Source: Azonexus sp. (GTDB lineage Bacteria > Pseudomonadota > Gammaproteobacteria > Burkholderiales > Rhodocyclaceae). Taken from it: a stretch of 64,000 bases of DNA. Made by a program: the position numbers and the translations under genes. Below are positions 28,850 through 47,696 of the stretch, piece by piece. Numbering within the stretch: the stretch's first letter is position 1; every line of letters starts with the position of its first letter. Below the pieces are notes generated by a model, which worked only from the letters and a program-made list of their open reading frames with translations, searched no databases and was not told where the DNA came from. The stretch covers positions 124,001-188,000 of the forward strand of contig NZ_JAKLLH010000011.1 in NCBI RefSeq assembly GCF_023150235.1. Reading direction: 5' to 3'.

Positions 28850-29386
28850 CTACGGCGATGCAAGCGCCACACAGGCCGGGCAAACGGCGCTGATCTCGAC
28901 TTCCGGGCTATCGAGCCGATGGCCGGAGGATTCAAGCGCCTGCAACAAGGCTTGCAGCGCGGCATCGGCATAAAGCTCGCTGATGCCGCCGCAGCTGGGG
29001 CAAAGCAGGAACAATCCGGGCAAACGGTGCGAAGCATGGCGGCAGGCGACAAAGACATTGCCGCGCCCAATCTTGTGCGCAAGCCCCTGGCCGGTCAGGA
29101 AATCGAGCGCCCGATATACCGTCGGCGGCGTCGCATTCGAGCGTTCCTGGCGCACCAGCGCCAGCAGATCGTAGGCTTTGAGACCACTGGGGTGGCGATA
29201 CAGCAGGCCGAGCACCAGACGCCTGATGGTCGTCAGCGAAACGCCCTGCTCCTTGCAGCGCGTGGCGGCGCCTTCAAGAAAAATCTCCTGGTCATCAAGG
29301 GAACTCAGGCTTGCTTCCGTCCCGGGGTAAAGAGCGTCTGGAATATTAGAATGCGATGTTATAACATCGCATTCCGGCGCCGCCAT
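28850..29386 (-). CDS. zur: Fur-family zinc-responsive regulator (Zur)
   Basis: A 178-aa Fur-superfamily repressor. The winged-helix core is VSLTTIRRLVLGLLYRHPSG with the recognition part TPPTVYRALDFLTGQGL; structural zinc is bound by two CxxC pairs, LLCPSCGG and AVCPACVA. HASHR provides a possible sensing site. The neighbourhood of zinc genes and the adjacent operator support Zur over Fur. The start is ATG 29386, with AGGAGA upstream; the operator 29349-29374 then lies inside codons 5-13. Strong in identity, moderate in start. Confidence 0.85.
   Translation of the reverse strand: MAAPECDVITSHSNIPDALYPGTEASLSSLDDQEIFLEGAATRCKEQGVSLTTIRRLVLGLLYRHPSGLKAYDLLALVRQERSNATPPTVYRALDFLTGQGLAHKIGRGNVFVACRHASHRLPGLFLLCPSCGGISELYADAALQALLQALESSGHRLDSPEVEISAVCPACVALASP
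29349..29374. promoter_or_regulatory. Zur operator (perfect 26-bp palindrome)
   Basis: GAATGCGATGTTA is followed immediately by its exact complement. The core ATGTTATAACAT matches the known proteobacterial Zur-box pattern (GTTATA...TATAAC). It lies between zur and the divergent Spy-like gene and overlaps the start of zur, so it could control both. Confidence 0.8.
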
Positions 29387-29451
29387 TGAAGTCTCTCCTG
29401 CTTTATCCAATCCCATCTGATCCCCTTTTATTCCGAAATATTGACAAAATC

Positions 29452-30961: not shown

Positions 30962-31041
30962 GGCATTCCCTTCTCGGTTATTTGATCAATCCCCGCATGT
31001 TAGTACAAGTGACGCACAGCATCAAATCTCAACCAGCTTTT

Positions 31042-31603: not shown

Positions 31604-31625
31604 GAAATGTTATAATGTTACATCT
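31604..31625. promoter_or_regulatory. probable Zur operator before the COG0523/cysS/thrS operon
   Basis: GAAATGTTATAATGTTACAT is an imperfect palindrome sharing ATGTTATA with the perfect operator at 29349-29374. It lies about 100 bases upstream of the GTPase start. Binding by Zur would shut the operon off when zinc is ample. The match is by eye. Confidence 0.68.
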
Positions 31626-31725: not shown

Positions 31726-32832
31726 ATGAACGAACCCGATATCGACCGCCGCATCCCGGTCACCCTGCTCACAGGCTTTCTCGGCGCCGGCAAGACGACG
31801 CTGCTCAATCACCTGCTCAGCCAGCCGGAAATGGCCAACGCAGCGGTGTTGATCAATGAATTCGGCAGTGTTGCGGTCGACCACCACCTGGTGAGCAAAA
31901 TCGACGAAGACCTGATCCTGCTCGACGCGGGCTGCATCTGCTGCACGGTGCGCGGCGACTTGACGCGCAGCTTGACCGATCTGTTCATGAAGAGCCTGCA
32001 GCGCAAGATCGCGCCGATCAATCGCGTGGTGATCGAAACCACCGGCCTGGCCGACCCGGCCCCGGTGATCTTCACGCTGATGGAGGATTTTTTCATTGCC
32101 GAGCGCTTCCGTATCGATGGCGTCGTCACCGTGGTCGACGCGACACATGCGGCCGGGCAACTGGCGCAGCACCCCGAAGCGGTCAAGCAGGTGGCGATGG
32201 CCGACCGCTTGCTGCTCAGCAAGTGCGACCTGGTGGAAGGGCCGGGAATCGACATGCTCAGTCAGACCTTGCGCCGGATCAACCCGGCGGCCGCGCAGAT
32301 TTATGTGCGCCGTGGCGAGATCGCGCTGGCTTCGATTACCGGCTGCGGCCTCTACGACCCAGGCAGCAAGACCCCGGATGTCGCCGGCTGGCTGGCCGAG
32401 GAAAAAGTGCGCGAGGAAAGACGCAAGGCGCCTGGGCATCACCATCATCATCACGACGTGGACCGTCACGATGCCGAGGTTTACAGCTTTGCGCTGACCT
32501 TCGACCAACCCTTGCAATGGGTCTGCTTCGTCGACGCCGTGAGCCTGTTGCTGCAGGGCATGGGCGACCGCATCCTGCGCATCAAGGGCCTGCTCAATGT
32601 GATCGGTGATGACAAGCCACGCGTCGTGCAATGCGTCCAGCACACCAACTATCCCTACGCCCGCCTCGACGAGTGGCCGGCCGAAGCGCCCTACAACGAC
32701 CGCAAGAGCCGCCTGGTCTTCATCGTGCGTGGCCTCGATCAGCTGCTGATCGAAAAAGCCTTCGCCATGTTCTGCGGCGTGCTCGACGACGAGCGCCGGG
32801 AGGCGCTGGTGGCCGAAGGGCGAATGCCATGA
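31726..32832 (+). CDS. COG0523 (CobW/ZNG1-type) GTPase metallochaperone
   Basis: A 368-aa GTPase. Walker [16 protein letters not shown] (about 17-31), the metal-binding CxCC motif in [13 protein letters not shown], Walker [12 protein letters not shown] and the guanine-specificity motif [10 protein letters not shown] are all present. A natural [12 protein letters not shown] loop (about 240-251) and the CobW C-terminal domain follow. Members of this subgroup deliver zinc to client enzymes under starvation; others act on cobalt or iron. The Zur box and neighbouring zinc-enzyme paralogues favour zinc. Its stop overlaps the cysS start in ATGA. Confidence 0.88.
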
Positions 32833-34229
32833 ACATCCGCCTGCACAACACGCTGAGCCGGCGGAAGGAAATCTTCGTGCCGGCCGATCCGCAGCGCGTC
32901 ACGATGTATGTCTGCGGCCCGACCGTCTATAACTACGTGCATATCGGCAACGCCCGCCCGGTGGTCGTTTTCGACGTGCTCTACCGGCTGCTGTCGCGGC
33001 ATTTCCCGCAGGTGGTCTACGCCCGCAACATCACCGACGTGGACGACAAGATCAACGCCGCCGCAGCCGCCAACGATGAGCCGATTCGCGTGCTGGCTGA
33101 ACGTTACGCCACGGCCTACCGTGCCGACATGGCGCAACTGAACGCACTGGCACCGAGTATCGAACCTTGGGCGACCGAGCATGTGCCGCAGATGATCGCC
33201 TTGATCGAGCGCCTGATCGAACGCGGCCACGCCTATGCCGCCGAAGGCCACGTGCTTTTCCATGTGCCATCGCTGCCGGATTACGGCAAGCTCTCGGGCC
33301 GCAACCGCGAGGACATGATTGCCGGAGCGCGGGTCGAAGTCGCGCCCTACAAGCGCGATCCGGCCGATTTCGTGCTTTGGAAGCCGTCGACCGTGGCGCA
33401 ACCGGGCTGGGAAAGCCCCTGGGCCGTCGGTCGCCCGGGCTGGCACATCGAATGCACGGCGATGATCCATACCCACCTCGGGCCGTCGATCGACATTCAC
33501 GGCGGTGGCCAGGACCTGATCTTTCCCCACCATGAAAACGAGATCGCCCAGGGCGAAGGAGCCCATGGTGGCCAGTACTGCCGCTACTGGCTGCACAACG
33601 GCTATGTCACGGTCGACGGCGAAAAGATGTCGAAATCGCTGGGCAACTTCCGCACCGTGCGCGACCTGTTGCAGCATTACCCGGGCGAAGTCATCCGCTA
33701 CGCCTTGCTCGCTGGTCACTACCGCAAGCCGCTCGACTTTTCGCTGACCGCACTCGATCAGGCCCGGGCAGCGCTCGACCGCCTGTACGCCAGCCTGCCG
33801 GCCACCGGCAGCCCGCCCCCCAAGGTGCGTGCCGAAGCCGTCGAAGCGGCGCTGGCCGATGACCTGAACACCCCGCTGGCGCTCGCCTGTCTGCACGAAA
33901 CCGCCAGCGCCCTGCGCAAATGTACGGACCCGGACGAGCAATCCCGTCTACTCGCCGTGCTGCGTGATGGCGCCGATTTGCTCGGTCTGTTGCAAGCCGA
34001 CCCGGCTCAGTGGCGGCAGCAACGGGGTATGGCGGCGGCCGGACAAGCCAGCGGCCCAACTCCCGAACAGATTGAAACCCTGATTACCGCGCGGCAAGCC
34101 GCCCGTGCGGCGCGTGATTTCGCCCGCGCCGATGCCCTGCGCCAGGAACTCGCCGCCCAGGGCATCGGTATCGAAGACAGCGCAACCGGCACAACCTGGC
34201 ATCGCCTGCACGCGGAGCCCGTGGCATGA
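32829..34229 (+). CDS. cysS: cysteinyl-tRNA synthetase, probable zinc-limitation paralogue
   Basis: A 466-aa class I synthetase charging tRNA-Cys. HIGH-like motif in [13 protein letters not shown] and KMSKS in [12 protein letters not shown]. The zinc ligands of CysRS are all kept: Cys in MYVCGPT, Cys in GWHIECTAM, and His/Glu in FPHHENE. ATG 32829 overlaps the stop of the GTPase gene, so translation is coupled. Zur-controlled duplicates of CysRS and ThrRS are known next to COG0523 genes; that this is a second copy cannot be checked without the genome. Confidence 0.93.
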
Positions 34230-34492: not shown

Positions 34493-36430
34493 ATGCCCTG
34501 CATCACGCTGCCCGACGGTAGCCAACGACATTTTCCGCAAGCAGTCAGCATCGCCGAACTGGCTGCCGACATCGGCCCCGGTCTGGCCAAGGCCGCCCTG
34601 GCTGGCCGGATCGATGGTCGCAGTGGTGTTCAACTCGTCGATACCGCCTTCCTTCTCGAACAAGACGCCAACGTCAGCCTGATCACCGCCCGCGACCCGG
34701 AAGGGCTGGAAATCCTCCGCCACTCCTGCGCCCACTTGCTGGCCATGGCCGTCAAGCAGCTCTATCCGAGCGCGCAGGTCACCATTGGCCCAGTCATCGA
34801 GGATGGCTTTTTCTACGACTTCGCCTTCGAGCGTCCTTTTACGCCCGACGATCTGGCGCAGATCGAAGCCCGCATGCAGGCACTGGCCGCTGCCGACCTG
34901 CCGCTCAGCCGGCGCGAACTGCTGCGCGACGAGGCCATCGCCTATTTCGAGCAACGTGGCGAGTCCTACAAGGCCGAACTGATCCGCGCCATTCCCGAGG
35001 GCGAAACCTTGTCGCTGTACCGCCAGGGCGATTTTGAAGACCTCTGCCGCGGCCCGCACGTGCCGAGCACCGGCAAGCTGCAGGCCTTCAAGCTGACCAA
35101 GGTGGCCGGTGCTTATTGGCGCGGCGATGCCAAGAACGCCATGCTGCAGCGCATCTACGGCACCTGCTGGCCGGATGCCAAGGCGCTCAAGGGCTATCTG
35201 ACCCGCCTCGAAGAAGCCGGCAAGCGCGATCACCGCAAGCTCGGCGCCCAGCTCGACCTCTTCCATTTCGACGACTGTGCGCCCGGTTCGGTGTTCTGGC
35301 ACCCGAAAGGCTGGACCCTGTTCCAGCAACTGATCGGCTACATGCGCACCCAGCAGGAGCGCGCCGATTATGTCGAGATCAATACCCCGGACGTGATGGA
35401 TCGTGGCCTGTGGGAAACCTCCGGCCACTGGTTCAACTACCGCGAGGCGATGTTTACGACGACGACCGAGGACGAGCGCGTCTTTGCGCTGAAGCCGATG
35501 AACTGCCCGGGCGCCGTTTCCCTCTTTGCCCAGGGCCTGAAAAGCTACCGCGACCTGCCGCTGCGCATGGCCGAGTTCGGCAAGGTGCATCGCTACGACC
35601 CCTCCGGTGCATTGCACGGCCTGTTGCGCGTGCGCCATTTCACCCAGGACGACGCGCACATCTTCTGCACGCCGGCCCGGATGCAGGACGAATGCGCCCG
35701 CACCATCGCCCTGGTCTTCGCCATCTACCGCGATTTCGGCTTCGAGGATGTCGCCGTCAAGCTATCCACCCGACCGGTCAACCGCATCGGCAGCAACGAC
35801 ACCTGGGACCAGCTCGAAGGCGCGCTGTCCGGGGCGCTCGACCGGATGGACATCGCTTACCGGATCAACCCCGGCGAAGGCGCCTTCTACGGCCCGAAGC
35901 TGGAATTCGTGCTGCGCGATGCCATCGGCCGCGACTGGCAATGCGGCACGCTGCAGGTCGACCTCAACCTGCCCGAGCGCTTCGACATCGGCTACATCAA
36001 CGAACAAGGCGAACGCGAACGGCCGGTCATGCTGCACCGGGCCTTGTTCGGCTCGCTGGAGCGCTTCACCGGCATCCTGATCGAACACTACAGCGGTCTT
36101 TTCCCGCTCTGGCTGGCACCGCAACAGGCGGTCGTGCTCAATATCAGCGAAGCTCAGACCGACTATGCGCAAAGCGTTCTGAAAGCCTTGAAAAAGGCCG
36201 GGCTGCGCGCCGCTGTCGATCTGCGCAACGAGAAGATCGGCTACAAGATTCGCGAATACACGCTGCAGAAAGTGCCTTACCTGCTCGTCGTCGGCGACAG
36301 GGAAAAAGCCGAACGGCGCATTGCCTTGCGCTCACGGGCTGGCGAAGATTTCGGCAGCCTGCCGCTCGATGAAGTCATCGCCCGTTTGCGCCAGGAAGCA
36401 CAGCCCCCCGGTAGCGAGGGATCATGCTGA
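34493..36430 (+). CDS. thrS: threonyl-tRNA synthetase, probable zinc-limitation paralogue
   Basis: A 645-aa class II synthetase. Order: TGS domain (1-62), editing domain with [16 protein letters not shown] (about 78-93), catalytic core, anticodon-binding domain. Zinc ligands of ThrRS are retained (Cys in KPMNCPGAV, His in [10 protein letters not shown], His in [10 protein letters not shown]). It stands apart from infC-rpmI-rplT, where the housekeeping thrS usually lies, and follows cysS and yidD behind a Zur box. This supports, without proving, a second starvation-induced copy. Confidence 0.93.
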
Positions 36431-36519
36431 TCCGCAAGCTGTTCAAGTTCGAGAACGCCCACATCGTGCGCGGTAAGGCAGTTGATTCTGTTGACGCTGA
36501 ATCGAACAAAACGAAATGA
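36424..36519 (+). pseudogene. truncated queD-like gene (6-carboxytetrahydropterin synthase N-terminus)
   Basis: A 31-codon frame whose first 16 residues, [16 protein letters not shown], match the N-terminus of QueD proteins with the catalytic-site histidine. After that the residues (GKAVDSVDAESNKTK) are unrelated and a stop follows. The ATG overlaps the thrS stop, as expected for an operon gene. QueD2 is a known member of Zur-controlled COG0523 clusters. I read this as the stub of a lost queD copy. Confidence 0.65.
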
Positions 36520-36656
36520 AAAATGACAAATTGCTCGATTCCCTGTCGAGACGTATCATCCACCCCTGCTGGTGCGGCGACCTCGCTACACCAGCTGCCG
36601 AAATAGCCGATTCAGGCCCTGACACCGCCCGGCTGAAGTTTTTCGTGTCACCCCTT

Positions 36657-36890
36657 GCATCAGGTGCCTGTTTCGGCGACGAAACGGGTGAAACGGGAAC
36701 GAGGTGCGCAACCTGCAACGGTTGCAATTCCTCGGCTGCCCCCGCAACGGTAAGCCAGTGCGGCTGCATCACGGTGAAATCTGGATTCACCAGCCACTGC
36801 GACATGACGTGGCGTCCGACCGGACGTGCGCGGATGACGTGGGAAGGCGATGCGGCAAAACTGGCAAGCCCGGAGACCGGCCTGCTGCAT
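36657..36890 (+). promoter_or_regulatory. cobalamin (adenosylcobalamin) riboswitch
   Basis: The leader contains the conserved blocks in order: AGGTGCC (36662), GTGAAACGGGAACGAGGTGC, the B12 box GCTGCCCCCGCAACGGTAAG (36735-36754), and GCAAGCCCGGAGACCGGCC (about 36864-36882). These define the class. It precedes a BtuB-like receptor by about 140 bases. Cobalamin binding would block expression. The stretch 36520-36656 before it shows no gene. Confidence 0.95.
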
Positions 36891-37027
36891 TCGTGCTGCC
36901 CGAGCAATCGGCGCAGCGTATGCAATGGATCGTCTGCGGGGTTGCGGATGATGACAGCGATGCGTCGACCACGGGTCGGCGCCGGTCATCTTTGCGCGTG
37001 CAGACGGTCAAGTTTGAGGATTTGACC

Positions 37028-39208
37028 ATGCAAAGATATCTCCCTCGGGCAGCAGGTACCGGCTTTCAACAGCGCAAGTTGACGGCTGCCGTGCTTGGCA
37101 CCTTGGCCTTATTGGCCTCGCAAGGCGTAGTGGCAGAAATGGCGGCAGATGTGGCAGCCCCCGCACACGCCAAGGAAACCTCCCCCGAAATGGCGCAAGC
37201 GGAGCGCGAGGCCGAGCTCCCCGTAATCACCGTCAGCGCCGGCCAGAGCGAGATCAAGCGAGTTTCTCCGGAAGACCTTGATTCCCGTTCAGTTGCCAAT
37301 GTACAAACGATTCTTGACGAAATTCCCGGTGTTTCCTACGCCCGCTCCGGCGGCCTGGGCGGGCAGATCGTGATGCGCGGCTTCAACTCGAATACGCCAA
37401 GAACCTTGCTGTTGGTCGATGGCGAACGCTTTCGGGGGCGCAACACCCTGGAATTCAACCTGATCGACCCTAACCAGATTGAGCGAATTGAAGTGCTGCG
37501 CGGCCCCGGCTCATCGATCTATGGGCCGGATGCCATGGTGGGCGTGGTCAATGTCATCACGCGCAAGGCCAAGGGCGATGTGAACGGCCCGATGACCTTC
37601 ACCCCGCTTGTGCGTGCCCTGGAGTACAACAGCGCCAGCGACATGACCTCCATTCGCCTCGAAGGGCAGGCGGTCGGCAATGGCCTGGACATGCTGGTCG
37701 GGGCGAGCTATCGATCCGCCAACAATTATTCCTCGCCGGACGGCGCTGTTCCCAATAGCGACTTCACGGTCGGCCAGTTCGATCTACGGGCCGGTTATCA
37801 GCTTCAACCCGGCCATCGGCTGGAACTGACGCTCAAGGCAGCGGATACCGAGAGTGGCCGGGCCGGCGGAATCGGGGGGGTTCCCGGCTGGCCGCTGGTT
37901 GTCCAACGCGAAGACCCGCTGCGCGAGCGTTATGCTCGCCTGGCTTACTCCGGTCGCCTGGAAAGCTGGGGCGTGGAGCAGTTGCAGGCCAGTGTCTATG
38001 TGCGCAGCCTTTACTCTCGCCTCACAACGGAAAACCGGACGCAGACCAACAAGTTGACCCTATCCGAGAACATCGTCGATGGGCCTGTTGTCTATGGCGG
38101 CAAAGTCTCTGCGCTGCTGCCGATGGGGCAGCACCTGCTGACCGTGGGAACAGATTTCTTCCATGAAATGCGCAAGGGCGCTCAGTCCGGATCGGCGGTG
38201 ACGACCCTGAGTACCGGCAAAACGGTGATTACCCCGGTAAGCCAGAATTCGCCAGATGCACAGCAAACCGATGTGGGCCTGTTTGCTCAACTTGATTATG
38301 TATTCTCCGACCGCTGGTCGGCCAAGTTCGGGGGGCGTCTGGATTACGTCAAGAGCCAAACCGAAACCAGCCCGATCATCTCTCCGGCCTTGCAGCCGGC
38401 CTATGACCGCAATCGCGAACGAACCGACCGGCCAGTGACCGGCCAGTTCAGTCTGGCCTATCGCTGGAACGACAAGCTGACCCTGTGGGGCGGGGCCGGC
38501 ACCTCCTTCCGGGTGCCGTCGACGATCGAGAGCTTCGGATCGAGCCGCCAGGGAACCGGGTATAACGTCCCGAATCCCGAACTGCGGCCAGAGGAAGGCA
38601 AAACGCTGGAAATCGGCTCCCGCTACAACAGCGAACGCACGCATCTGGATATCACGCTGTTTGACAGCCGCTATACCGATTTCATCGTTCGTACACCGAT
38701 CACCTTCAATGGACTGGCCTCGTATCAAAACCAGAACGTCGGTAGTGCTCGGGTTCGCGGTATTGAGTTCGATGGCAGCCAGAAGATCACTTCTATGCTG
38801 CGGGCCTATTTCAACCTTGCCTATGTGCATGGCACGGACACCCAGACCGACCGACCGCTCGCCTACCTGCCGCCACTTAATGGCCGCCTTGGTCTGCGTG
38901 CCGATCTGGGTAACAGCGGCCGGTTCGAGCCGGCCTTGCGCTGGGCGAAAGGCAAGCACCGTCTCGATACGGCATCGGAACGTTCTACCGTCGGCTATGC
39001 GGTTCTTGACCTTTACTGGAGCAAGGATGTTGGCCGCTGGTTTGATCGCGCAGGGCGGACCACCCTGAGTGTTGGCATCAGCAACGTATTCGATCAGCGC
39101 TATCGCCTGGCGACAACGGTTGAAGACATTCGCTACCCGACCTCGACGACCAACCCCTTGCTGGAAACCGGGCGTGCTTTCTCCGTCTCGCTGAAATCGG
39201 ATTTCTGA
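37028..39208 (+). CDS. TonB-dependent receptor for cobalamin or related corrinoid (BtuB-like)
   Basis: A 726-aa outer-membrane receptor. A long signal region (KLTAAVLGTLALLASQGVVA) is followed by a TonB box-like LPVITVSA, the plug (VQTILDEIPGVSYARSGG, IVMRGFNSNTPRTLLLVDG, IEVLRGPGSSIYG) and a beta-barrel ending GRAFSVSLKSDF with terminal Phe. The cobalamin riboswitch upstream points to B12, cobinamide or a cobalt chelate as substrate. ATG 37028 has TGAGGA upstream. It heads an operon with a permease and an IspH-like gene. Confidence 0.9.
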   Translation: MQRYLPRAAGTGFQQRKLTAAVLGTLALLASQGVVAEMAADVAAPAHAKETSPEMAQAEREAELPVITVSAGQSEIKRVSPEDLDSRSVANVQTILDEIPGVSYARSGGLGGQIVMRGFNSNTPRTLLLVDGERFRGRNTLEFNLIDPNQIERIEVLRGPGSSIYGPDAMVGVVNVITRKAKGDVNGPMTFTPLVRALEYNSASDMTSIRLEGQAVGNGLDMLVGASYRSANNYSSPDGAVPNSDFTVGQFDLRAGYQLQPGHRLELTLKAADTESGRAGGIGGVPGWPLVVQREDPLRERYARLAYSGRLESWGVEQLQASVYVRSLYSRLTTENRTQTNKLTLSENIVDGPVVYGGKVSALLPMGQHLLTVGTDFFHEMRKGAQSGSAVTTLSTGKTVITPVSQNSPDAQQTDVGLFAQLDYVFSDRWSAKFGGRLDYVKSQTETSPIISPALQPAYDRNRERTDRPVTGQFSLAYRWNDKLTLWGGAGTSFRVPSTIESFGSSRQGTGYNVPNPELRPEEGKTLEIGSRYNSERTHLDITLFDSRYTDFIVRTPITFNGLASYQNQNVGSARVRGIEFDGSQKITSMLRAYFNLAYVHGTDTQTDRPLAYLPPLNGRLGLRADLGNSGRFEPALRWAKGKHRLDTASERSTVGYAVLDLYWSKDVGRWFDRAGRTTLSVGISNVFDQRYRLATTVEDIRYPTSTTNPLLETGRAFSVSLKSDF

Positions 39209-39212
39209 TGCC

Positions 39213-39710
39213 ATGAAACCCGTTCTTTTCATTCTCGGTGGCATTGCATTGATCCTGGCGTGGGTTGCCTGGCGTCGCGAGCCCGGCCTTGTCGGTGCCG
39301 GTTTGTTGCAAGGGGGGCGTAGTGCGCTTGAAGTCCTGCCCGTCATGCTGCTGACCTTCGTCATTGCCGGATTTTTCACGCAACTTGTCCCCAAGGATGT
39401 GGTTTTGGCGTGGATAGGCAACGAATCCGGCTGGCGGGGAATTGCCTTGGGTTGTCTTGCCGGTGTGCTGGCGCCGGGAGGGCCGCTCACCATGTTCCCC
39501 CTGGTCGGGCTCATCCAGCAAGCCGGTGCAGGCATCGGCACGCTGGTTGCCTTGGTCACGGCCTGGTCGATGTGGGGAGTCCGCATGATCTTGCTCGAAT
39601 CAGCCTTGATCAGTCCGCGTTTTGCCCTTTTCAAATTCCTGAGTTGCTTCTTCGTGCCTTTGCTGGCGGGCGGAATTGCCCATCTGGCCTACGGACGCTT
39701 CTGGAAATGA
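39213..39710 (+). CDS. small permease (ArsP/DUF318-like half protein)
   Basis: A 165-aa integral membrane protein with about five helices, for example PVLFILGGIALILAWVAW and VLPVMLLTFVIAGFFTQLVP. The APGGPLTMFPLVGLI motif with paired glycines and prolines resembles the predicted-permease family PF03773, but the protein is about half the usual length and may act as a dimer. It starts 4 bases after the receptor stop. In this operon it may move a cobalt species or corrinoid across the inner membrane; that is inference. Confidence 0.65.
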   Translation: MKPVLFILGGIALILAWVAWRREPGLVGAGLLQGGRSALEVLPVMLLTFVIAGFFTQLVPKDVVLAWIGNESGWRGIALGCLAGVLAPGGPLTMFPLVGLIQQAGAGIGTLVALVTAWSMWGVRMILLESALISPRFALFKFLSCFFVPLLAGGIAHLAYGRFWK

Positions 39711-39737
39711 AAGCAACTTGATTCACGAGGAAAACAA

Positions 39738-40682
39738 ATGAACGAACCCATTGAAACACCGCACGGTGCCGCCCCGCTGGATATCCAGGTCGCCACCATT
39801 GCCTACTGCTGGGGCATTGATCTCGCCATGAAGCGGATCGCCGATTCTTCCGGCGAAGGCGAGTTACAGGCGACCCACCGCTGGTCGCCCAAGCCAGAGG
39901 CCCGGCGCTGGGATCCGCTGGAGTTGGTTCGCAGGCAGGATCCCGATCTGCTCGCGCGCTATCCCGGACTGGAACGGGTGAAAGTGGTCGACAAGCTGAG
40001 CGACGTTACGGCCAGTCGTCTTGCGCTCGGACACCACGGAACGGTCGAACCCTTGCCGGAAGCCGGCGGGGCGACGGTTCACGACTTCACCTGCCCGTTT
40101 ATCGCCAACAGCGAGCACCGCGCCCATGTACTCGCCGAAGCAGGCTTCGACCTGATTCTTTTTGGCAAACCCGGCAACCATCACTGCGAGTACGCCAAAT
40201 CAGCTGCCGAAGCCAAGGGCCGAACCGGCATCATCGGCGAAGCAGTGGCCGATTTGCTCCCGCAAATTCGCCAGGCGGATCGCAACTGGGCGTGCCTGGG
40301 TCAAGTCACCGCCAATATCGAACGCTGGGCGGCATTCAAAAACGACCTGCAAGGATTGGATATTCCGGTGCACATCGTCGATACCGTGTGCAGCGACAGT
40401 TTCGATCGACAAAACGAGGGCTTGAAACTGGCGCGCGCTTGCGATGTCGTCATTCTGGTCAATGACCATGGCGGCTCTACGCTCAGCCTTTACGAAGTGT
40501 GCCGCGCCGCCAATCCAAATACCTACCGCCACGATCATCTGGCGAACGAGGGAATCAAGCCTGAATGGCTGGCAGGCGCTCGCTCCGTGGCAATACTTGG
40601 CGGGATTCATGTGCCGAAATGGATTCTCGATGAGGTTGGGGCAGGAATTTCACGGCTACACAGGATGGAGATTCAGCCGTGA
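39738..40682 (+). CDS. IspH/LytB-like iron-sulfur protein in a cobalamin-regulated operon
   Basis: A 314-aa protein related to IspH (HMBPP reductase). Three cysteines sit where IspH binds its Fe-S cluster: AYCWGIDLAMKR, HDFTCPFIANSEHRA and DTVCSDSFDRQ. IspH's catalytic H-x-E appears as HCE in GNHHCEYAKS. The substrate-pocket segments differ from true IspH, and the protein belongs to a permease/receptor operon under a B12 riboswitch. It probably reduces something other than HMBPP, perhaps a corrinoid; that is inference. GAGGAAA precedes ATG 39738. Confidence 0.75.
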   Translation: MNEPIETPHGAAPLDIQVATIAYCWGIDLAMKRIADSSGEGELQATHRWSPKPEARRWDPLELVRRQDPDLLARYPGLERVKVVDKLSDVTASRLALGHHGTVEPLPEAGGATVHDFTCPFIANSEHRAHVLAEAGFDLILFGKPGNHHCEYAKSAAEAKGRTGIIGEAVADLLPQIRQADRNWACLGQVTANIERWAAFKNDLQGLDIPVHIVDTVCSDSFDRQNEGLKLARACDVVILVNDHGGSTLSLYEVCRAANPNTYRHDHLANEGIKPEWLAGARSVAILGGIHVPKWILDEVGAGISRLHRMEIQP

Positions 40683-40725
40683 TCAATTCCCCCAACTGCT
40701 CACCAAGCGAACACAGAGGAACGCC

Positions 40726-40842
40726 ATGATCCGCAAGAACCCGCGCGGCGACCTGGAGCCAATCCACATCCATGCCGATACCAACGTCCTGGAAGGTGTC
40801 GTCATACACATCCAAAAATATCACCCCATCAAATACGAATAG
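40726..40842 (+). CDS. 38-aa His-rich small protein
   Basis: A short frame: MIRKNPRGDLEPIHIHADTN, then VLEGVVIHIQKYHPIKYE. It has four histidines in IHIH, VIHI and YHP, suited to metal or haem contact. AGAGGA lies 5 bases before the ATG, better than for many larger genes. It is 43 bases after the IspH-like gene and so probably the last gene of the B12 operon. No known family recognised. Confidence 0.6.
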   Translation: MIRKNPRGDLEPIHIHADTNVLEGVVIHIQKYHPIKYE

Positions 40843-40873
40843 CTATCATTTGATACAATTTGCAGTTCCCCAG
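40843..40873. promoter_or_regulatory. possible iron-type operator/promoter before the siderophore receptor
   Basis: GCTATCATTTGATACAATTT contains the palindrome TATCATTTGATA and is A/T-rich against a GC-rich background. It is 90-120 bases before the receptor gene. The likeness to a Fur box is only partial, so it may simply be the promoter. Confidence 0.35.
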
Positions 40874-40962
40874 GTAACTCCCCGGAGTGCCGGCCCCTCC
40901 AACTTCCACGGCCGGCGCTGCTCCGAAAAACTGGCCCCCAGCCCCATTTCACAGAGAAAATC

Positions 40963-43080
40963 ATGTACAGATTTCATCCGAAACACGCCCCCCTCCCAAT
41001 CGCCTTGCTGGCTTTTTGTGCTCTCCCCGCCCAGGCGCAAGACCGGGAATTGAGAGAGATACAGGTTGTCGGTCGAGGTGAAGGTCAGCACTATTACAGC
41101 GACGAAGCCGGTGTCGCCCGCGCCGAAACCCCCTTGCGCGAGGTACCGCAGGCCGTGCGTATCGTGCCGCGCCAAGCCATTGACGACATTGGCGCGGTAC
41201 GTCTGGAAGAGGCTTACGACTATGTGAGCGGGGTGAACCGTCAGAACAGCTTTGGCGGTCTGTGGGATAACTTCTCGATCAGGGGCTTTGCTGGCGACCC
41301 CAATACCGGCGCCAATTTTCTCCGCAATGGCTTTGCCGGCAATCGTGGCTACAACGCACCGCGCGACATGGCCAATGTGGAACGCCTGGAAGTGATCAAG
41401 GGGCCGGCTTCGGCCTTGTATGGCGGCAGCGAGCCGGGGGGCATCCTCAATATCGTGACCAAGAAACCGCAATTCAAGGCGGGCCATGCGGTTGAGGTCT
41501 ACGCCGGGAGCTACGACACTTACCGGACGAATATTGACTCGACGGCAGCCATAACCGACACGCTGGCCTATCGTCTGAACATGGCTTACGAGGACAAGGG
41601 TAGCTTCCGCGAGCATATCGACAGCCAGCGCTACCTGTTTGCCCCTTCCTTGACCTGGCTGCTGACGCCGGCCACGGTGGTGAATTACGACTTTGAAGCC
41701 TTGCGCCAGCGAACACCGATGGATCGCGGCGTGATCGCCATCGATGGAAAACCCGGCAGTATCCCGCGCAGCCGCTTTCTCGGCGAGCCGAATGACGGAA
41801 ATATCACCCTCGACAACAAGACCCACAATCTGACCGTCGAGCACGAGTTTTCCAGCGACTGGAAGGCCAAGGCCGGCCTGGCCTACCGGACGACCAGCCT
41901 GGAGGGTTACTCGACCGAGGCCAGCCCGCGCACCGCGGGTAGTATCCGCTGGACCACGGCCGGCTCGCCGGTTATCGAGCGTGAGCGTCGCTATCGTGAT
42001 TTCAGCTCCAACGAGCTTGCCTTCCAGAGTGAAATCCACGGCAAGTTTGTTACCGGGCAACTTAAACACGAGTTGCTGGCGGGCATGGACAGCTACCGCT
42101 TCGAGCTGGACCAATTGATGACACGCGGCCGCTCGACGACGAGTTACGGCCTGAACATCGACAACCCCGTTTATGGTCAGACTCCGCTGGCACTCAACAC
42201 GACCCCGACCAATACCCGCGAGACCCAGTACAACACGGGTCTCTTCCTGCAGGATCAGTTGACCGTGGCCGAAGACTGGCGTCTCCTGATCGGATTGCGC
42301 CACGATCGTTTCCGCCAGGAGATCGACAACCGCAATACTCGTGTGCGTAGCGAGCAAGAACACCATGTGACGACACCACGTATCGGCCTGAGCTGGTTGG
42401 CGACGCCAAGCCTGACGGTTTACGCCCTGGCCAGCGAATCCTTCCGTGCCAACAACGGCATCGATGCCGCCGGCAATGCCTTCAAGCCCGAGCGTGGGCA
42501 GTCCAGGGAAATCGGCTTCAAGTACGAGGCTCCGAACAAACGCTACGGCGGCACCTTGTCGCTCTTCCAGATCGAGAAGAAGAACGTACTGGCCAATGAC
42601 CCTGCCAACGCCGGTTTCTCCATTGCGGCGGGAGAAGCGCGCAGCCGGGGCATCGAATTCGATTTCTCCGGGCAGATTACGGAAAAAATCCGCGTTCTCG
42701 CCAATTACGCTTTCATCGATGCCGAAATCACCAAGGACAGCGCTGCAAACCTGGTGGGAGCACGCCTCACCAATGTGCCGAAACATAGCGGCAGCGTTCT
42801 GGCAATGTACGAGGACAGTCTTGCGCAGGGGCGCTACGGCATGGGTGCCGGAGCGACCTACGTTGGCAAACGTTCCGGCAATAGCATCGACAGCTTTGAG
42901 CTGCCGGGCTACACCACGGTACGCACGATGGCTTACTGGAAGCCGAACAAGACCCTGCGCTTCTCGCTGGATATCGACAACCTGCTGGACAAGAAGTACT
43001 ACGCCAGTTCCTATGATGTTTATTGGGTCACGCCGGGAGCTCCGCGCACCGTCACCCTGGGCATGCAGGCAAGGTTCTGA
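40963..43080 (+). CDS. TonB-dependent siderophore-type receptor
   Basis: A 705-aa receptor of the FhuE/FpvA/FoxA class. Signal peptide ends ALPAQAQ; then the plug with PLREVPQAVRIVPRQAIDD, DNFSIRGFAGDPNTG, RLEVIKGPASALYGGSEPGG and VTKKPQ, typical of ferric-siderophore receptors; the barrel ends RTVTLGMQARF. It is followed by a membrane acyltransferase gene (overlap of one base) and a ZrgA-type metal system on the same strand, so zinc or another chelated metal is also possible. Confidence 0.9.
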   Translation: MYRFHPKHAPLPIALLAFCALPAQAQDRELREIQVVGRGEGQHYYSDEAGVARAETPLREVPQAVRIVPRQAIDDIGAVRLEEAYDYVSGVNRQNSFGGLWDNFSIRGFAGDPNTGANFLRNGFAGNRGYNAPRDMANVERLEVIKGPASALYGGSEPGGILNIVTKKPQFKAGHAVEVYAGSYDTYRTNIDSTAAITDTLAYRLNMAYEDKGSFREHIDSQRYLFAPSLTWLLTPATVVNYDFEALRQRTPMDRGVIAIDGKPGSIPRSRFLGEPNDGNITLDNKTHNLTVEHEFSSDWKAKAGLAYRTTSLEGYSTEASPRTAGSIRWTTAGSPVIERERRYRDFSSNELAFQSEIHGKFVTGQLKHELLAGMDSYRFELDQLMTRGRSTTSYGLNIDNPVYGQTPLALNTTPTNTRETQYNTGLFLQDQLTVAEDWRLLIGLRHDRFRQEIDNRNTRVRSEQEHHVTTPRIGLSWLATPSLTVYALASESFRANNGIDAAGNAFKPERGQSREIGFKYEAPNKRYGGTLSLFQIEKKNVLANDPANAGFSIAAGEARSRGIEFDFSGQITEKIRVLANYAFIDAEITKDSAANLVGARLTNVPKHSGSVLAMYEDSLAQGRYGMGAGATYVGKRSGNSIDSFELPGYTTVRTMAYWKPNKTLRFSLDIDNLLDKKYYASSYDVYWVTPGAPRTVTLGMQARF

Positions 43081-44243
43081 TGTCGTCGCCCGCTACCGGA
43101 CAACGTATCGCCGCCATCGATACCCTGCGCGGCTTGGCAATGGCGCTGATGCTCATTGATCATGTTCGCGAGTATTTCTACCTGCACCAGCAGGTCGGCG
43201 ATCCGATGAACCTGGACAGCACTTCGCCGGCCCTGTTTTTTACTCGCCTCGCCAGCCATTTCTGCGCACCGGTCTTCGTTTTTCTTACCGGACTCGGTGC
43301 CTGGTGCCACGGACAGAAATTTGTCACGCAATCTAGCGATGGCCGACGGCAGACCAGCATTTATCTCGCCAAACGCGGGCTGTTCCTGATTTTGCTCGAG
43401 CTAACGCTGATCAACCTGGCATGGTCCTTTCCCGCACTGCCCAAGATGATCTATCTGCAGGTCATCTGGGCAATTGGCTTGAGCATGCTGGCGCTATCCC
43501 TGCTCCTCTGGCTCCCGCGTGGCGGTCAACTCGCAACAGCGGCCGTGATCATTGCCGGCCACCATCTACTCGATGGAATACATTTCACCAGCGATCAGCT
43601 GGCCTTCCCGATCTGGGCGATTCTCCATGACCGTTCGATCATCGAACTGGACTGGCTGGCGGCAGGTTTGAAGGCGCGCACATCCTATCCGGTATTGCCG
43701 TGGATAGGCGTCATCCTGCTCGGCCATGCGATTGCTCCTTTATATGGGCGGAGCATCGATGCCGGTCAACGCCAGCAACGCGTGATGTGGATGGGGGTCG
43801 GCATGCTTGCCGTGTTCGCACTGCTGCGTGCGCTGAATGTCTATGGCGATCATCCGCGACCGCCCTCTGCCGATTTTGGCGGCGAGCTCATGTCCTGGCT
43901 GAACGTCAGCAAATATCCCCCTTCCCTTCTTTTCCTGCTCCTTACTCTTGGCCTCGGCCTGATTGTCCTTGCCCAACTGGAAAAATACCCGCCTCGGCGC
44001 ATGCTGCTCGACCTGGGACGGGTCCCGATGTTTTTCTATATTCTCCATCTCTATGTTCTGCGCGGACTTTACCTCTTGCTGAGCGCGGCCTTCGGTAGTA
44101 CGCAAGGAGCGCGTTACGGCTTCAATTCGGTCTGGCAGATCTGGCTGCTGGCTGCATTACTCCTGCCAACCCTCTATCCGCTCTGTCGTCGCTTTGCCGA
44201 TTTCAAGCGACAGCGGGCGGGAGGCTGGACTTCCTATTTTTGA
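43080..44243 (+). CDS. DUF1624-type polytopic membrane protein (acyltransferase-like)
   Basis: A 387-aa inner-membrane protein with about ten helices. The N-terminus RIAAIDTLRGLAMALMLIDHVREYFYLHQ has the arginine/aspartate/histidine pattern of the heparan-alpha-glucosaminide N-acetyltransferase/DUF1624 group. LPWIGVILLGHAI and RVPMFFYILHLYVLRG are further family stretches. The substrate is unknown; a role in modifying a chelator or envelope sugar could explain its place. ATG 43080 shares its A with the stop of the receptor gene. Confidence 0.82.
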   Translation: MSSPATGQRIAAIDTLRGLAMALMLIDHVREYFYLHQQVGDPMNLDSTSPALFFTRLASHFCAPVFVFLTGLGAWCHGQKFVTQSSDGRRQTSIYLAKRGLFLILLELTLINLAWSFPALPKMIYLQVIWAIGLSMLALSLLLWLPRGGQLATAAVIIAGHHLLDGIHFTSDQLAFPIWAILHDRSIIELDWLAAGLKARTSYPVLPWIGVILLGHAIAPLYGRSIDAGQRQQRVMWMGVGMLAVFALLRALNVYGDHPRPPSADFGGELMSWLNVSKYPPSLLFLLLTLGLGLIVLAQLEKYPPRRMLLDLGRVPMFFYILHLYVLRGLYLLLSAAFGSTQGARYGFNSVWQIWLLAALLLPTLYPLCRRFADFKRQRAGGWTSYF

Positions 44244-44274
44244 AGAAACCCTCGGCCAAAACAGCACAAGGCAC

Positions 44275-44805
44275 ATGATGCACTTTCCAAGCCCTCTCTC
44301 CCGACGCCTGGTATCGCGCCAATTTTTCCCCTGGCTGTTTCTGGCTTACTTGCCAGCCAGCGTCCAGGCTCATGTCCATGGCGAGGCCCGGCTGGAAATC
44401 GGGCTCGCCGGCAATACGCTGGAACTACGCCTGGAAGTGCCGCAGGAGGCCCTGCTCGGCTTCGAGCGGGCGCCGCAAAGCGCCTCCGAGCGAGAGGCCT
44501 GGCGCCTACTGCAGGCGAGGCTGGCCAACCCGGCCGCTCTCTTCAGCCTGCCCGCTGCCGCCGATTGCCAGGCCGCCAACGGCCCCGACCCCGAGCACCT
44601 GCGCCCGCTGTCAGCGGGCGACGGGCACCGCGACCTGATCCTGGCCTACCGCTGGCACTGCCGCCAGCCGGAGCGCTTGCGGGCACTCGACAGCCAGTTG
44701 TTCAGCGAATTTCCCCGCCTGCAACGGATCCGGGTCGACTTTGCCGGGCCGAGCGGGCAGAAATCCGGCCGCCTGAGCGCCCGCCAAGCGCGTTTTACCT
44801 GGTGA
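44275..44805 (+). CDS. DUF2796 (ZrgA-like) zinc-binding periplasmic protein
   Basis: A 176-aa exported protein. After a signal sequence (WLFLAYLPASVQA) the mature N-terminus HVHGEARLEIGLAGNTLELRLEVP matches DUF2796/ZrgA, a zinc-regulated protein of the Vibrio ZrgABCDE uptake system. Later conserved parts are PQEALLGFERAP, CQAANG and AYRWHC, and two His near the N-terminus could bind metal. Family members usually have a His-rich middle, which is missing here. Its stop overlaps the ATPase start (GTG 44802). Confidence 0.8.
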   Translation: MMHFPSPLSRRLVSRQFFPWLFLAYLPASVQAHVHGEARLEIGLAGNTLELRLEVPQEALLGFERAPQSASEREAWRLLQARLANPAALFSLPAAADCQAANGPDPEHLRPLSAGDGHRDLILAYRWHCRQPERLRALDSQLFSEFPRLQRIRVDFAGPSGQKSGRLSARQARFTW

Positions 44806-45482
44806 TCGCGAACCCCTCCCTACCGGCGCTGGCGGTTCGCGCCCTCCGCTACCAATGGCCGGGCAACCCGGAGTTCACGCTGAATTTGCCCGATTTCACG
44901 GTCGACCGTGAACACAGCCTGTTTTTGCACGGCCCCAGCGGCAGCGGCAAAACCACCCTGCTCAATCTGCTGGGGGGCGTGCTGCGCCCGCAGGCCGGCG
45001 AGATCGAACTGCTCGGACAGCCCTTTTCGGCGTGGCCGGCCCGCCGCCGGGATGCCTTTCGCGCTGACCACATCGGTTTCATCTTCCAGCAGTTCAACCT
45101 GATCCCCTATCTCTCGGTCCTCGACAATGTGCTGCTGCCCTGCCGCTTCTCGCCCCTGCGCGCGCGCCGGGCCGGCGACCCGGCAGCGAGCGCACGGACC
45201 CTGCTGGCAGCGCTCGAAATCGGCGGCGAATTGCTGGCACGGCCCGCCCATGCGCTGTCGGTCGGCCAGCAGCAGCGAGTCGCTGCCGCCCGGGCGCTGA
45301 TCGGCGGCCCGGAAATCCTGATCGCCGACGAACCGACCTCGGCCCTCGACGCCGGCCGCCAAAGCGCCTTTGTCGAGCTGTTGCTGGCACAGGCACGACA
45401 ACACCGCAGCAGCGTTGTCTTCGTCAGCCACGACCTGCGCCTGGCCAGCCGCTTCACCGCCGTCCGCGAGTTGCCGTCATGA
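44802..45482 (+). CDS. ABC transporter ATP-binding protein (LolD/MacB-type, ZrgB-like context)
   Basis: A 226-aa ATPase. Walker A GPSGSGKTTLLN (about 40-51), Q-loop FQQFNLIPYLSV, ABC signature LSVGQQQRVAAAR, Walker B ILIADEP and the switch His in VSHDL are complete. It energises the MacB-fold permease gene that follows. The start GTG 44802 overlaps the DUF2796 stop in GTGA. A GGTCGACC palindrome lies inside the coding region (44900-44907), reading TVDRE. Confidence 0.9.
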   Translation: MIANPSLPALAVRALRYQWPGNPEFTLNLPDFTVDREHSLFLHGPSGSGKTTLLNLLGGVLRPQAGEIELLGQPFSAWPARRRDAFRADHIGFIFQQFNLIPYLSVLDNVLLPCRFSPLRARRAGDPAASARTLLAALEIGGELLARPAHALSVGQQQRVAAARALIGGPEILIADEPTSALDAGRQSAFVELLLAQARQHRSSVVFVSHDLRLASRFTAVRELPS

Positions 45483-45634
45483 GTCCGCAGCCGTCCCTCG
45501 CGCTGTCGGTCGCTCATCCGCCGGCACTGCCTTCACGATGCGCCAGGCATTCGGCCTCCCACCCGGCCGATCAGCGCCTCAGCGCGGTAGCGCAAGCGCT
45601 GCATTGCCCCTGGCAGCCGAGGTTCCCGCAATGA
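45479..45634 (+). CDS. possible 51-aa coupling ORF between ATPase and permease
   Basis: A frame that starts in the ATPase stop (ATGA at 45479) and ends in the permease start (ATGA at 45631). It reads MSPQPSLALSVAHPPALPS, then RCARHSASHPADQRLSAV. Four His and two Cys are present. The double overlap suggests a relay for translation even if the peptide is unimportant. The permease could instead start in its own frame at ATG 45538. Confidence 0.35.
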   Translation: MSPQPSLALSVAHPPALPSRCARHSASHPADQRLSAVAQALHCPWQPRFPQ

Positions 45635-46914
45635 GCCGCTGGCGCTTTCTGCTGCCGCTGGCCGCCGCCAGCGCCTGGAACCGGCGTGCCACCCTGGGCC
45701 TGACCCTGCTCGCGGTCATCCTCGCCAGTACCCTGCTGCTCGCCGCCGAGCGCCTGCGCCACGATGCCCGCCACAGCTTCGCCCAGGCCGTCGCCGGCAG
45801 CGACCTGATCGTCGGCGCCCGGGGCAGCCCGCTGCAACTGGTCCTGCATGCGCTGTTCCGGGTTGGCGAGGCGAGCGGCCCGATCAGCTGGCGCAGCTAC
45901 CGGCAGATCGCCGCCGATCCGGCGGTCGCCTGGAGCATTCCGCTGGCGCTCGGCGACTCGCATCGCGGCTACCCGGTGATCGGCACCAACGGCGATTACT
46001 TCCGGCATTTCCGGCACGGCCCGGGCATCCCGCTGCAATTTTCCGCCGGGCGGGCCTTTGCCGAGACCGGCCCGGGCCTCTTCGAAGCCGTGCTCGGTGC
46101 CGAGGCTGCCCGCCAGCTTGGCTATCGACCGGGCAGCCAACTCACCGTCAGCCATGGCAGCGGCCCGCTGCCCAGCGCCAGCCACCAGGACAAACCGCTG
46201 ACTGTGGTCGGCGTCCTCGCCGCGACCGGCACCCCGGTTGATCGCGGCATCCACGTCCCCCTGGCTGCATTCACCGCGCTCCATCTCGACTGGCAAGGCG
46301 GCCAGCCCTTGCCCGGCCTGCAGATTCCCGCCGAACACGTCGCCAAGTTCGACCTGACGCCGCATGAGATCGACGCCTTCCTGCTCGGGCTGCACCAGCG
46401 CAGCACGGTCTTTTCGCTGCAGCGGCGGATTGCCGCCTTCCGCGACGAGCCGCTGCAGGCCGCCCTGCCCGGTATCGTCCTCGATCAGCTCTGGCACAGC
46501 CTGGCTTTTGGCGAACGCCTGCTGCGCGGACTATCCTGGCTGATTCTGGCGCTCAGCCTGTGCGGCATGCTGGCGGTGATGCTCGCCGGGCTCGGCGAGC
46601 GCCGGCGCGAACTGGCGATCCTGCGCGCCGTCGGCGCCGGGATGCCGCAGATTGCCGCCTTGCTGCTGCTCGAAAGCCTGCTCCTCGGCCTGCTCGGCAC
46701 CGCCGCCAGCGTGCTGCTGCTGGCCGGGCTGACCAGCCAGTGCGCCCCCTGGCTGGCCACCCACTGGGGTATCGTCGGGCAATCGCCGTGGCCGCAAGGC
46801 GATGAATTGCCCCTGCTCGCGGCCATCCTGGCCACCGCGCTGCTCGCCGGCCTGTTGCCGGCCTGGCGCGCCAGCCGGCTGGCCCTGGCCGACGGCTTGA
46901 CCCCACGCTTGTAA
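45631..46914 (+). CDS. ABC transporter permease (FtsX/MacB fold)
   Basis: A 427-aa protein with one N-terminal helix (TLGLTLLAVILASTLLLAA), a large periplasmic domain (about 45-300) and three C-terminal helices including LSWLILALSLCGMLAVMLAGLG and LLLESLLLGLLGTAASVLLLAGL, the FtsX-like layout. The coupling segment is GERRRELAILRAVGAG. With the preceding ATPase it forms a MacB-type mechanotransmitting transporter rather than a channel importer. Together with DUF2796 and DUF3299 proteins it resembles the Zrg system. Confidence 0.88.
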   Translation: MSRWRFLLPLAAASAWNRRATLGLTLLAVILASTLLLAAERLRHDARHSFAQAVAGSDLIVGARGSPLQLVLHALFRVGEASGPISWRSYRQIAADPAVAWSIPLALGDSHRGYPVIGTNGDYFRHFRHGPGIPLQFSAGRAFAETGPGLFEAVLGAEAARQLGYRPGSQLTVSHGSGPLPSASHQDKPLTVVGVLAATGTPVDRGIHVPLAAFTALHLDWQGGQPLPGLQIPAEHVAKFDLTPHEIDAFLLGLHQRSTVFSLQRRIAAFRDEPLQAALPGIVLDQLWHSLAFGERLLRGLSWLILALSLCGMLAVMLAGLGERRRELAILRAVGAGMPQIAALLLLESLLLGLLGTAASVLLLAGLTSQCAPWLATHWGIVGQSPWPQGDELPLLAAILATALLAGLLPAWRASRLALADGLTPRL

Positions 46915-46925
46915 ACCACACCCCC

Positions 46926-47696
46926 ATGCACCAGGCTGCCCGCTTCCCCTTCCCGCCACCGCAAGCAGCACAGCGTCGGCCCCTGAACCGGCCCTCAACC
47001 CGGCCCTCAACCCGACGCCACCGCTGCCTTGCTGCAGCTTTTGGCTGCCACCTGGTCGACCTCCTGATCCGCCTTCCTATCCGCCTGCTGGCCCCGCTGC
47101 TGGCGCTATGGCTCGCCGCGCCTGCGCTCGCCGCCACCCCGGGCGAAGCGGCCGGCCCGCAACGCCTGCAAGCCGTCACCCCGGCCAAACCGGGTCTGCG
47201 CCACAGCTACCGGGAACTGCGCTGGGAGGAACTGCAACCCCGGGACTGGGACCCGGCGGCCAGCTTCAAGAAGCTTGACCTGAGCAAGCTCAAGGACAGC
47301 GACCCGCGCGCCATCGCAGCGCTGCAGGAATTGCGCAGCGCCTGGGACCGGGCGCCGGTGCGCAAGGAAATCGATGGCTGGCAGGTACGCATCGCCGGCT
47401 ACGTGATTCCGCTCGAACGGCGCGGCGAGCGGGTCAGCGAATTGCTGCTGGTGCCGTATTTCGGCGCCTGCATCCACAGCCCGCCACCGCCGGCAAACCA
47501 GACCATTCATGTCGTGCTGAACAAACCCCAGGCCGGCATCCAGACCATGGATACCTTCTGGATCAACGGCCAGCTCAGCGTGGGCCGTGGCGACAGCGGC
47601 CTCGGCGTCTACGCCTACCGCATCCGTGCCGAGCGGCTCGATCCCTTCGCCATCCCGCGCGCTCAGGGGACCAGCCAGACCGCGAGCGGACGATAG
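46926..47696 (+). CDS. DUF3299 periplasmic protein
   Basis: A 256-aa protein with an unusually long basic leader before the hydrophobic signal part (RLLAPLLALWLAAPALAA, about residues 55-72), so a start further in is possible. The mature domain has the DUF3299 pattern: RIAGYVIPLER, LLLVPYFGACIHSPPPPANQ and TFWINGQLSV. DUF3299 proteins accompany ZrgA-type transporters. It is the last gene of this operon; its 3' end overlaps the convergent thpR gene by 34 bases. Confidence 0.82.
   Translation: MHQAARFPFPPPQAAQRRPLNRPSTRPSTRRHRCLAAAFGCHLVDLLIRLPIRLLAPLLALWLAAPALAATPGEAAGPQRLQAVTPAKPGLRHSYRELRWEELQPRDWDPAASFKKLDLSKLKDSDPRAIAALQELRSAWDRAPVRKEIDGWQVRIAGYVIPLERRGERVSELLLVPYFGACIHSPPPPANQTIHVVLNKPQAGIQTMDTFWINGQLSVGRGDSGLGVYAYRIRAERLDPFAIPRAQGTSQTASGR

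Follow-up and report, generated by a model that had tools for sequence, protein, structure and literature searches.

A cobalamin riboswitch-led gene block encoding a divergent LytB/IspH-like protein in Azonexus sp., with a possible role in metal acquisition

Introduction

IspH-family (LytB) proteins, exemplified by Escherichia coli IspH and the Aquifex aeolicus enzyme (3dnf), are to our knowledge known only as reductases of (E)-4-hydroxy-3-methylbut-2-enyl diphosphate (HMBPP). Here we describe a divergent LytB/IspH-like protein encoded in a stretch of 64,000 nucleotides from Azonexus sp. (RefSeq assembly GCF_023150235.1, contig NZ_JAKLLH010000011.1, positions 124,001 to 188,000; hereafter, the window), in a block of genes that is led by a cobalamin (B12) riboswitch and also encodes two TonB-dependent receptors and a half-size permease. 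The reading that we tentatively favor is that the block is a cobalamin riboswitch-controlled metal-acquisition module located in a zinc-starvation cluster, with cobalt as the most likely metal. It is based on the joint occurrence of the B12 riboswitch, TonB receptors, permease, putative Fe–S reductase, and gamma-carbonic anhydrase-like gene in a zinc-starvation cluster, and cobalt is favored because it is the metal common to both stresses.

With the E. coli and A. aeolicus enzymes, the window protein shares the profile family PF02401, the cluster cysteines, and the residues H74, H124, E126, Q166, and T168, whereas it lacks H41, T167, S225, N227, and S269, carries an insertion containing QATHRWSPKPEARRWDPLELVRR and extra His and Cys residues, and is encoded behind a B12 riboswitch. 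The B12 riboswitch-controlled uptake operons (BtuB/BtuFCD and CbiMNQO) resemble the block in combining the riboswitch with a TonB receptor and an inner-membrane protein; in contrast to them, the block has a receptor that is not BtuB-like and, instead of an ABC (ATP-binding cassette) permease, a half ArsP_1-type permease together with the LytB-like enzyme.

In Pseudomonas aeruginosa, the Zur-controlled sets PA2911–PA2914 (a TonB receptor and an ABC importer) and PA4063–PA4066 (a ZrgA homologue and a MacB-type exporter) are reported to move pyochelin–cobalt, inward and outward, under zinc starvation (PMC11481552, PMC13083405), and the replacement of zinc by cobalt is put forward as an extension of the pyochelin–cobalt work (PMC13083405); zinc-starved Cupriavidus is also reported to be able to use cobalt (PMC11340326). 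The window has in common with the P. aeruginosa system a TonB receptor and a ZrgA/MacB-type gene set in a zinc-starvation setting, but its block has a B12 riboswitch at the head and yielded no Zur-box-like site, and the portions of the Pseudomonas literature consulted mention no LytB-like protein. The Zur-linked clusters of COG0523 proteins and enzyme paralogs, for which CysRS, ThrRS, QueD, Cam, and COG0523 are listed (PMC2770081), share COG0523, cysS, thrS, queD, and gamma-carbonic anhydrase with the window, which differs in having a B12 riboswitch-led block with a LytB-like gene among such genes. No literature linking a cobalamin riboswitch with LytB, IspH, or the Zur regulon was found in a search that most subscription papers lay outside, and PMC2770081, in which 'LytB' occurs 0 times, was the sole match found for a B12 riboswitch, zinc limitation, and Zur together. 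Cobalt uptake as a response to zinc starvation is known in Pseudomonas (PMC11481552, PMC13083405), and its link to a B12 riboswitch was not found in the literature searched. The favored reading, if true, would extend the IspH Fe–S fold to a new substrate, through a conserved paralog in which the cluster is retained and the diphosphate pocket is lost, with expression linked to cobalamin and neighbors linked to zinc, and would offer a genetic handle on the cobalt/zinc trade-off in cells.

Architecture of the riboswitch-led block

The aptamer of the cobalamin riboswitch (RF00174) lies at 36645..36899 of the + strand (cmscan, 93.8 bits; gathering score, 31.5; E, 5.1e-22). It is followed on the same strand, all with open frames, by TonB-dependent receptor 1 (37028..39208; Pfam PF00593/PF07715), the half-size ArsP_1-type permease of 165 amino acids (39213..39710; PF03773), the LytB/IspH-like protein of 314 amino acids (39738..40682; PF02401), and TonB-dependent receptor 2 of the siderophore type (40963..43080; TIGR01783, 368.5 bits against a cut-off of 223.5). 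Only 4 bases separate receptor 1 from the permease gene, and 27 bases separate the latter from the LytB-like gene. An earlier reading of the DNA made without database searches (the sequence-only reading) had proposed an operon of a cobalamin riboswitch, a receptor, a half-size permease, a LytB-like protein, and a His-rich peptide; the covariance model and the gene calls confirm the riboswitch ahead of the three genes, and the peptide is the only component that did not stand. Receptor 2, which accompanies the block in both genomes that carry it, and the zinc-starvation surroundings were not part of that reading. Immediately 5' of the AUG of receptor 1, the fold of 36990–37040 (-15.3 kcal/mol; z, -2.38; 8 of 200 shuffles at least as stable) contains a hairpin (37006..37027, + strand; GGUCAA–loop–UUGACC) with a likely ribosome-binding site in the loop; this hairpin is probably the expression platform. 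A promoter and terminator scan gave nothing above chance.

The supposed His-rich peptide (40726..40842, + strand) corresponds in position to an open 186-codon gamma-carbonic anhydrase-like gene in a second genome of the genus (G1067), which has the same start, MIRKNPRGDL, scores 138.5 bits with CcmM and 121.6 bits with carb_anhyd (both under cut-off), and matches Hexapep. The alignment shows that the 38 codons of the window are a remnant of such a gene with internal and terminal deletions, so that a metal-binding peptide, as a component of the operon, is ruled out.

Active site of the LytB-like protein

Membership in the LytB superfamily is supported by 88.9 bits with PF02401 (cut-off, 24.5; profile positions 66–264 of 267), and all seven NCBIfam IspH equivalog models matched under cut-off, the best at 90.2 against 276 bits. 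The protein was aligned, together with its G1067 counterpart, with 22 canonical IspHs (E. coli IspH, the genome's own copy, 15 from genomes of the family, and five from plasmid records). The cluster cysteines C12, C96, and C197, kept in 22 of 22 canonical sequences, correspond to C24, C119, and C218 in both LytB-like copies, and the catalytic residues H124 and E126 to H149 and E151, ahead of which there is an insertion of one or two residues; H74, Q166, and T168 are also retained. The residue alignment confirms what was noted from the sequence only, namely an otherwise divergent protein that retains all three cysteines of the cluster and the H-x-E motif. On the other hand, H41, T167, S225, N227, and S269, each invariant in the 22 canonical IspHs, are lost in both copies: H41 is replaced by R, S225 by G, N227 by a gap or S, and S269 by H, the H41 and N227 columns being loosely aligned. 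Both copies share additional His and Cys residues (H99, H148, C150, H244, and H291), the first four of which are near the motif residues, and an insertion of 20-odd residues relative to IspH in which QATHRWSPKPEARRWDPLELVRR is invariant. We infer that the His at the S269 position may line one pocket together with H99, H148, C150, and H244.

The diphosphate pocket of IspH is formed by H41, H74, H124, S225, S269, T168, N227, and Q166, and E126 and H124 constitute the proton source (PMC8837944). Four of the five lost residues (H41, S225, N227, and S269) are thus diphosphate ligands. A divergent paralog that still has HMBPP, or some other isoprenoid diphosphate, as its substrate would agree with the PF02401 score above cut-off and with the retained cluster ligands, H124, and E126; given these losses from invariant positions, the scores far under every IspH equivalog cut-off, and a canonical ispH in both genomes, we regard such a role as improbable. 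The canonical gene of the Azonexus genome is found at G000:C47:29822-30652 (336 bits), which rules out the LytB-like gene as the sole ispH, the case that would have overturned the sequence-only reading; G1067 likewise has a canonical copy in addition, whereas each of the 13 further genus genomes that were tested contains a single copy only. Because of the lost active-site residues and the canonical ispH in both genomes, HMBPP is an unlikely substrate of the LytB-like protein. In a tree, the two LytB-like copies group together (100/100), separated from the 22 canonical rows by a branch of 9.65 changes per column; the position of the group is unsure owing to the long branches. A single-sequence AlphaFold2 model of the protein had a mean predicted local distance difference test score of 36.1 and was not used.

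Conservation and rarity of the block

The second thrS of the genome led to G1067, the sole other carrier among 30 genus genomes (93% identical). Its neighborhood aligns with the window across the riboswitch, receptor 1 (80% identity), the permease (82%), the LytB-like gene (69%), and receptor 2 (84%). The G1067 riboswitch also scores 93.8 bits, with 226 of 255 columns identical to those of the window, and the leader from the aptamer to the AUG matches at 121 of 128 positions; in the genes behind the riboswitch, 61–67% of the synonymous sites differ. The ratios of nonsynonymous to synonymous divergence (dN/dS; Nei–Gojobori) are 0.096 for receptor 1, 0.068 for the permease, 0.142 for the LytB-like gene, and 0.081 for receptor 2, at block dS values of 1.2–1.6 that are near saturation. 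Because of this conservation and the low dN/dS, the block is real and under purifying selection. Both known copies of the LytB-like gene (2 of 2) are behind a Cobalamin riboswitch, so that the other case that would have overturned the sequence-only reading, homologues never occurring under B12 control, did not arise.

The LytB-like protein was found in only 2 of 76 genus genomes, namely this one and G1067. Larger samples (297 genomes of the family, 369 of the class, 398 of the phylum, and 300 of the order), which overlap and were searched at differing strict thresholds, gave only the copy of the present genome, the family sample having missed G1067. At an E-value of 1e-5, 266 genomes of the family sample matched, all but the present one at 56.3 bits or less; 15 of these sequences were aligned, and the rest were taken as IspH unexamined. 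Nine plasmid records matched at ~25% identity, and five of the nine, which were fetched, resemble ordinary IspH. A single-protein scan gave no relative in 29 genome-contig and 13 viral-contig stretches, scans of viral contigs with alignments A1 and A2 gave none in 32 and 15 stretches, respectively, and a DNA-pattern scan yielded two viral-contig and 10 genome-contig stretches without a relative by tblastn (best E, 0.36), in contig searches of limited reach, in which G1067, carrying one query peptide and the DNA pattern, did not surface either. Receptor 1 (2 of 150 genomes at E 1e-60) and the permease (1 of 297 at E 1e-10) are similarly rare. The low G+C content of the block (59–60%, against 63.1% for the whole window), together with this rarity, suggests that it was acquired horizontally.

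Receptors, permease, and B12 background

The models nearest to receptor 1 are those of heme/hemoglobin receptors (TIGR01786, 238.6 bits; TIGR01785, 230.6 bits; both under cut-off), whereas the B12-receptor model TIGR01779 gives only 107.9 bits against a cut-off of 599.7; judged by these scores, receptor 1 is not BtuB-like. A relative of receptor 1 (38% identical) in a family genome, G146 (locus L068), is followed by substrate-binding-protein-like and permease-like frames and is without a Cobalamin riboswitch.

Five Cobalamin riboswitches were found in the genome in all. One, on contig C25, is located by CbiM/CbiQ/CbiX/CbiC/CbiD genes; another, on C29, by a receptor followed by FecCD and ABC genes; and two are on C15, one by a nitroreductase-family gene and CbiB and one by CobS. 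Outside the block, the genome is thus equipped with genes for B12 synthesis, with cobalt uptake, and with a receptor that is BtuB-like. This background bears on the possibility that receptor 1 imports a corrinoid, which the LytB-like protein reduces or strips of its upper ligand for adenosylation. The Cobalamin riboswitch in both genomes and the proximity of receptor 1 to tetrapyrrole (heme-type) receptor models would suit such corrinoid handling; nevertheless, we consider it unlikely, although it ranks next after metal acquisition, since receptor 1 scores far below the C29 receptor on the B12 model (the latter reaches 400.4 bits, likewise under the cut-off), FecCD and ABC genes follow the C29 receptor, the genome contains B12 synthesis genes, and the zinc-starvation neighbors would be left unexplained. 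Of the role proposed in the sequence-only reading, corrinoid-related or in metal handling, the corrinoid part is weakened by the receptor score and the separate B12 riboswitch loci, and the surroundings, which favor zinc/cobalt homeostasis, speak for metal handling.

The permease covers the C-terminal part of ArsP_1 (PF03773 profile positions 176–290 of 294) at 32.4 bits, barely above the cut-off of 32.3, in keeping with the half size originally assigned to it, and weakly matches the SO_0444 Cu/Zn efflux and SaoE models, both far under cut-off. The latter likeness would accord with export or detoxification, in which a metal or organometal is pumped out by the permease and rendered harmless by the LytB-like protein. 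This function has little probability in our view, as a B12 riboswitch, on at low B12, suits acquisition and TonB receptors import.

The zinc-starvation setting

Upstream of the block, the window encodes a Zur-like regulator of the FUR family (28850..29416, - strand) that is above cut-off with PF01475 and scores 91.5 bits with the NCBIfam Zur model (cut-off, 167). A search with what we take to be the Zur box consensus gave an exact match, ATGTTATAACAT, at 29356..29367 (within 29352–29371, + strand), and a second site with two mismatches at 31607..31618 (within 31607–31622, + strand), upstream of the gene for a COG0523/CobW-type GTPase (31726..32832, + strand; PF02492, 161.6 bits; PF07683, 63.2 bits); 0.21 matches at two or fewer mismatches are expected in the window, against the two found. 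The + strand continues with cysS (32829..34229; TIGR00435, 477.3 bits; cut-off, 340), the second thrS (34493..36430; TIGR00418, 704.3 bits), which is 59% identical to the other copy at G000:C24:7251-9143, and, directly upstream of the block, the truncated start of a queD-like gene (36424..36519). The first 17 residues of the latter are identical to those of the G1067 gene, which is complete with 198 codons (PTPS, PF01242, 74.4 bits), the 3' part being missing in the window. This upstream zinc cluster also contains yidD. Beyond receptor 2, a ZrgA-like protein, an ABC ATPase, a MacB/FtsX-type permease, and a DUF3299 protein (44260..47696, + strand) form a gene set like PA4063–PA4066, of which PA4066 is presumably the DUF3299 protein.

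The queD-like neighbor raises the possibility that the LytB-like protein is a B12-independent stand-in, on when B12 is short, for a B12-dependent reductase such as that of epoxyqueuosine (QueG), by a reaction akin to the reductive dehydroxylation of IspH. QueG is present in both genomes, as a stand-in requires, yet all eight genus genomes in which it was sought have it, and its presence is uninformative; the queD flank has a divergence history different from that of the block, and the two receptors and the permease would have no explanation. We consider this function highly improbable.

Possible mechanism and its weighing

For metal acquisition, the following sequence of events can be envisaged, in which we infer the metal, the complex, the direction of transport, and the reaction of the LytB-like protein. 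At low adenosylcobalamin, the ribosome-binding site before receptor 1 would become free, judging by the hairpin. Receptor 1, and probably receptor 2, would supply the periplasm with a metal complex, of either a metallophore or a tetrapyrrole type, and the half permease, which presumably dimerizes, would carry the metal or its ligand over the inner membrane. The LytB-like protein, as a [4Fe–4S] reductase with the IspH fold, may then reduce the complex or strip an oxygen of the ligand, leading to metal release. The cobalt would serve B12 synthesis and substitute for zinc; where the operon is intact, its gamma-carbonic anhydrase would be one user. That the protein is a new LytB-family enzyme, which has a His/Cys-rich site in place of the diphosphate pocket and applies the cluster chemistry of IspH to a complex of cobalt or to the ligand in it, and that the block ties a B12 riboswitch to zinc-starvation physiology, is a more doubtful proposal than metal acquisition as such.

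Several observations weigh against metal acquisition in a zinc-starvation context. The Zur box search described above gave no site within the block (36645–43080), and the promoter scan found no sigma-70-type promoter 5' of the riboswitch. The left flank differs from G1067 at a dS of only 0.17–0.42, against 1.2–1.6 for the block, and because the flank is far less diverged, the block and the zinc cluster may have different histories; in G1067, the ZrgA set, as read by eye, is not at the 3' side of the block. Cobalt uptake of the CbiM/CbiQ type is already under another riboswitch, proteins related to the ArsP_1-type permease carry efflux-transporter names, and no Cobalamin riboswitch was found at the four fetched nearest relatives of receptor 1 or at two relatives of the permease in other organisms. 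Our confidence is limited because of the missing Zur box, the different divergence of flank and block, and the lack of a ZrgA set next to the block in G1067, and because the metal itself is deduced. The earlier interpretation as a whole is partly supported: the genome has another, canonical ispH, the active site of the LytB-like protein speaks against HMBPP as its substrate, and both copies are B12 riboswitch-led. The corrinoid substrate has become weaker, and the peptide was wrong.

Other features of the window

A C-terminal piece of another TonB receptor of the hemoglobin/heme type, apparently truncated, is located at 30982–31521 and adjoins the second Zur-box-like site. Receptor 2 is followed by an HGSNAT/acyltransferase-like membrane protein (43083–44243), where G1067 has ABC-type genes instead. 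The window further contains a repeat-rich open frame of 2518 residues (18714–26270) with a long TPAPTPAP stretch.

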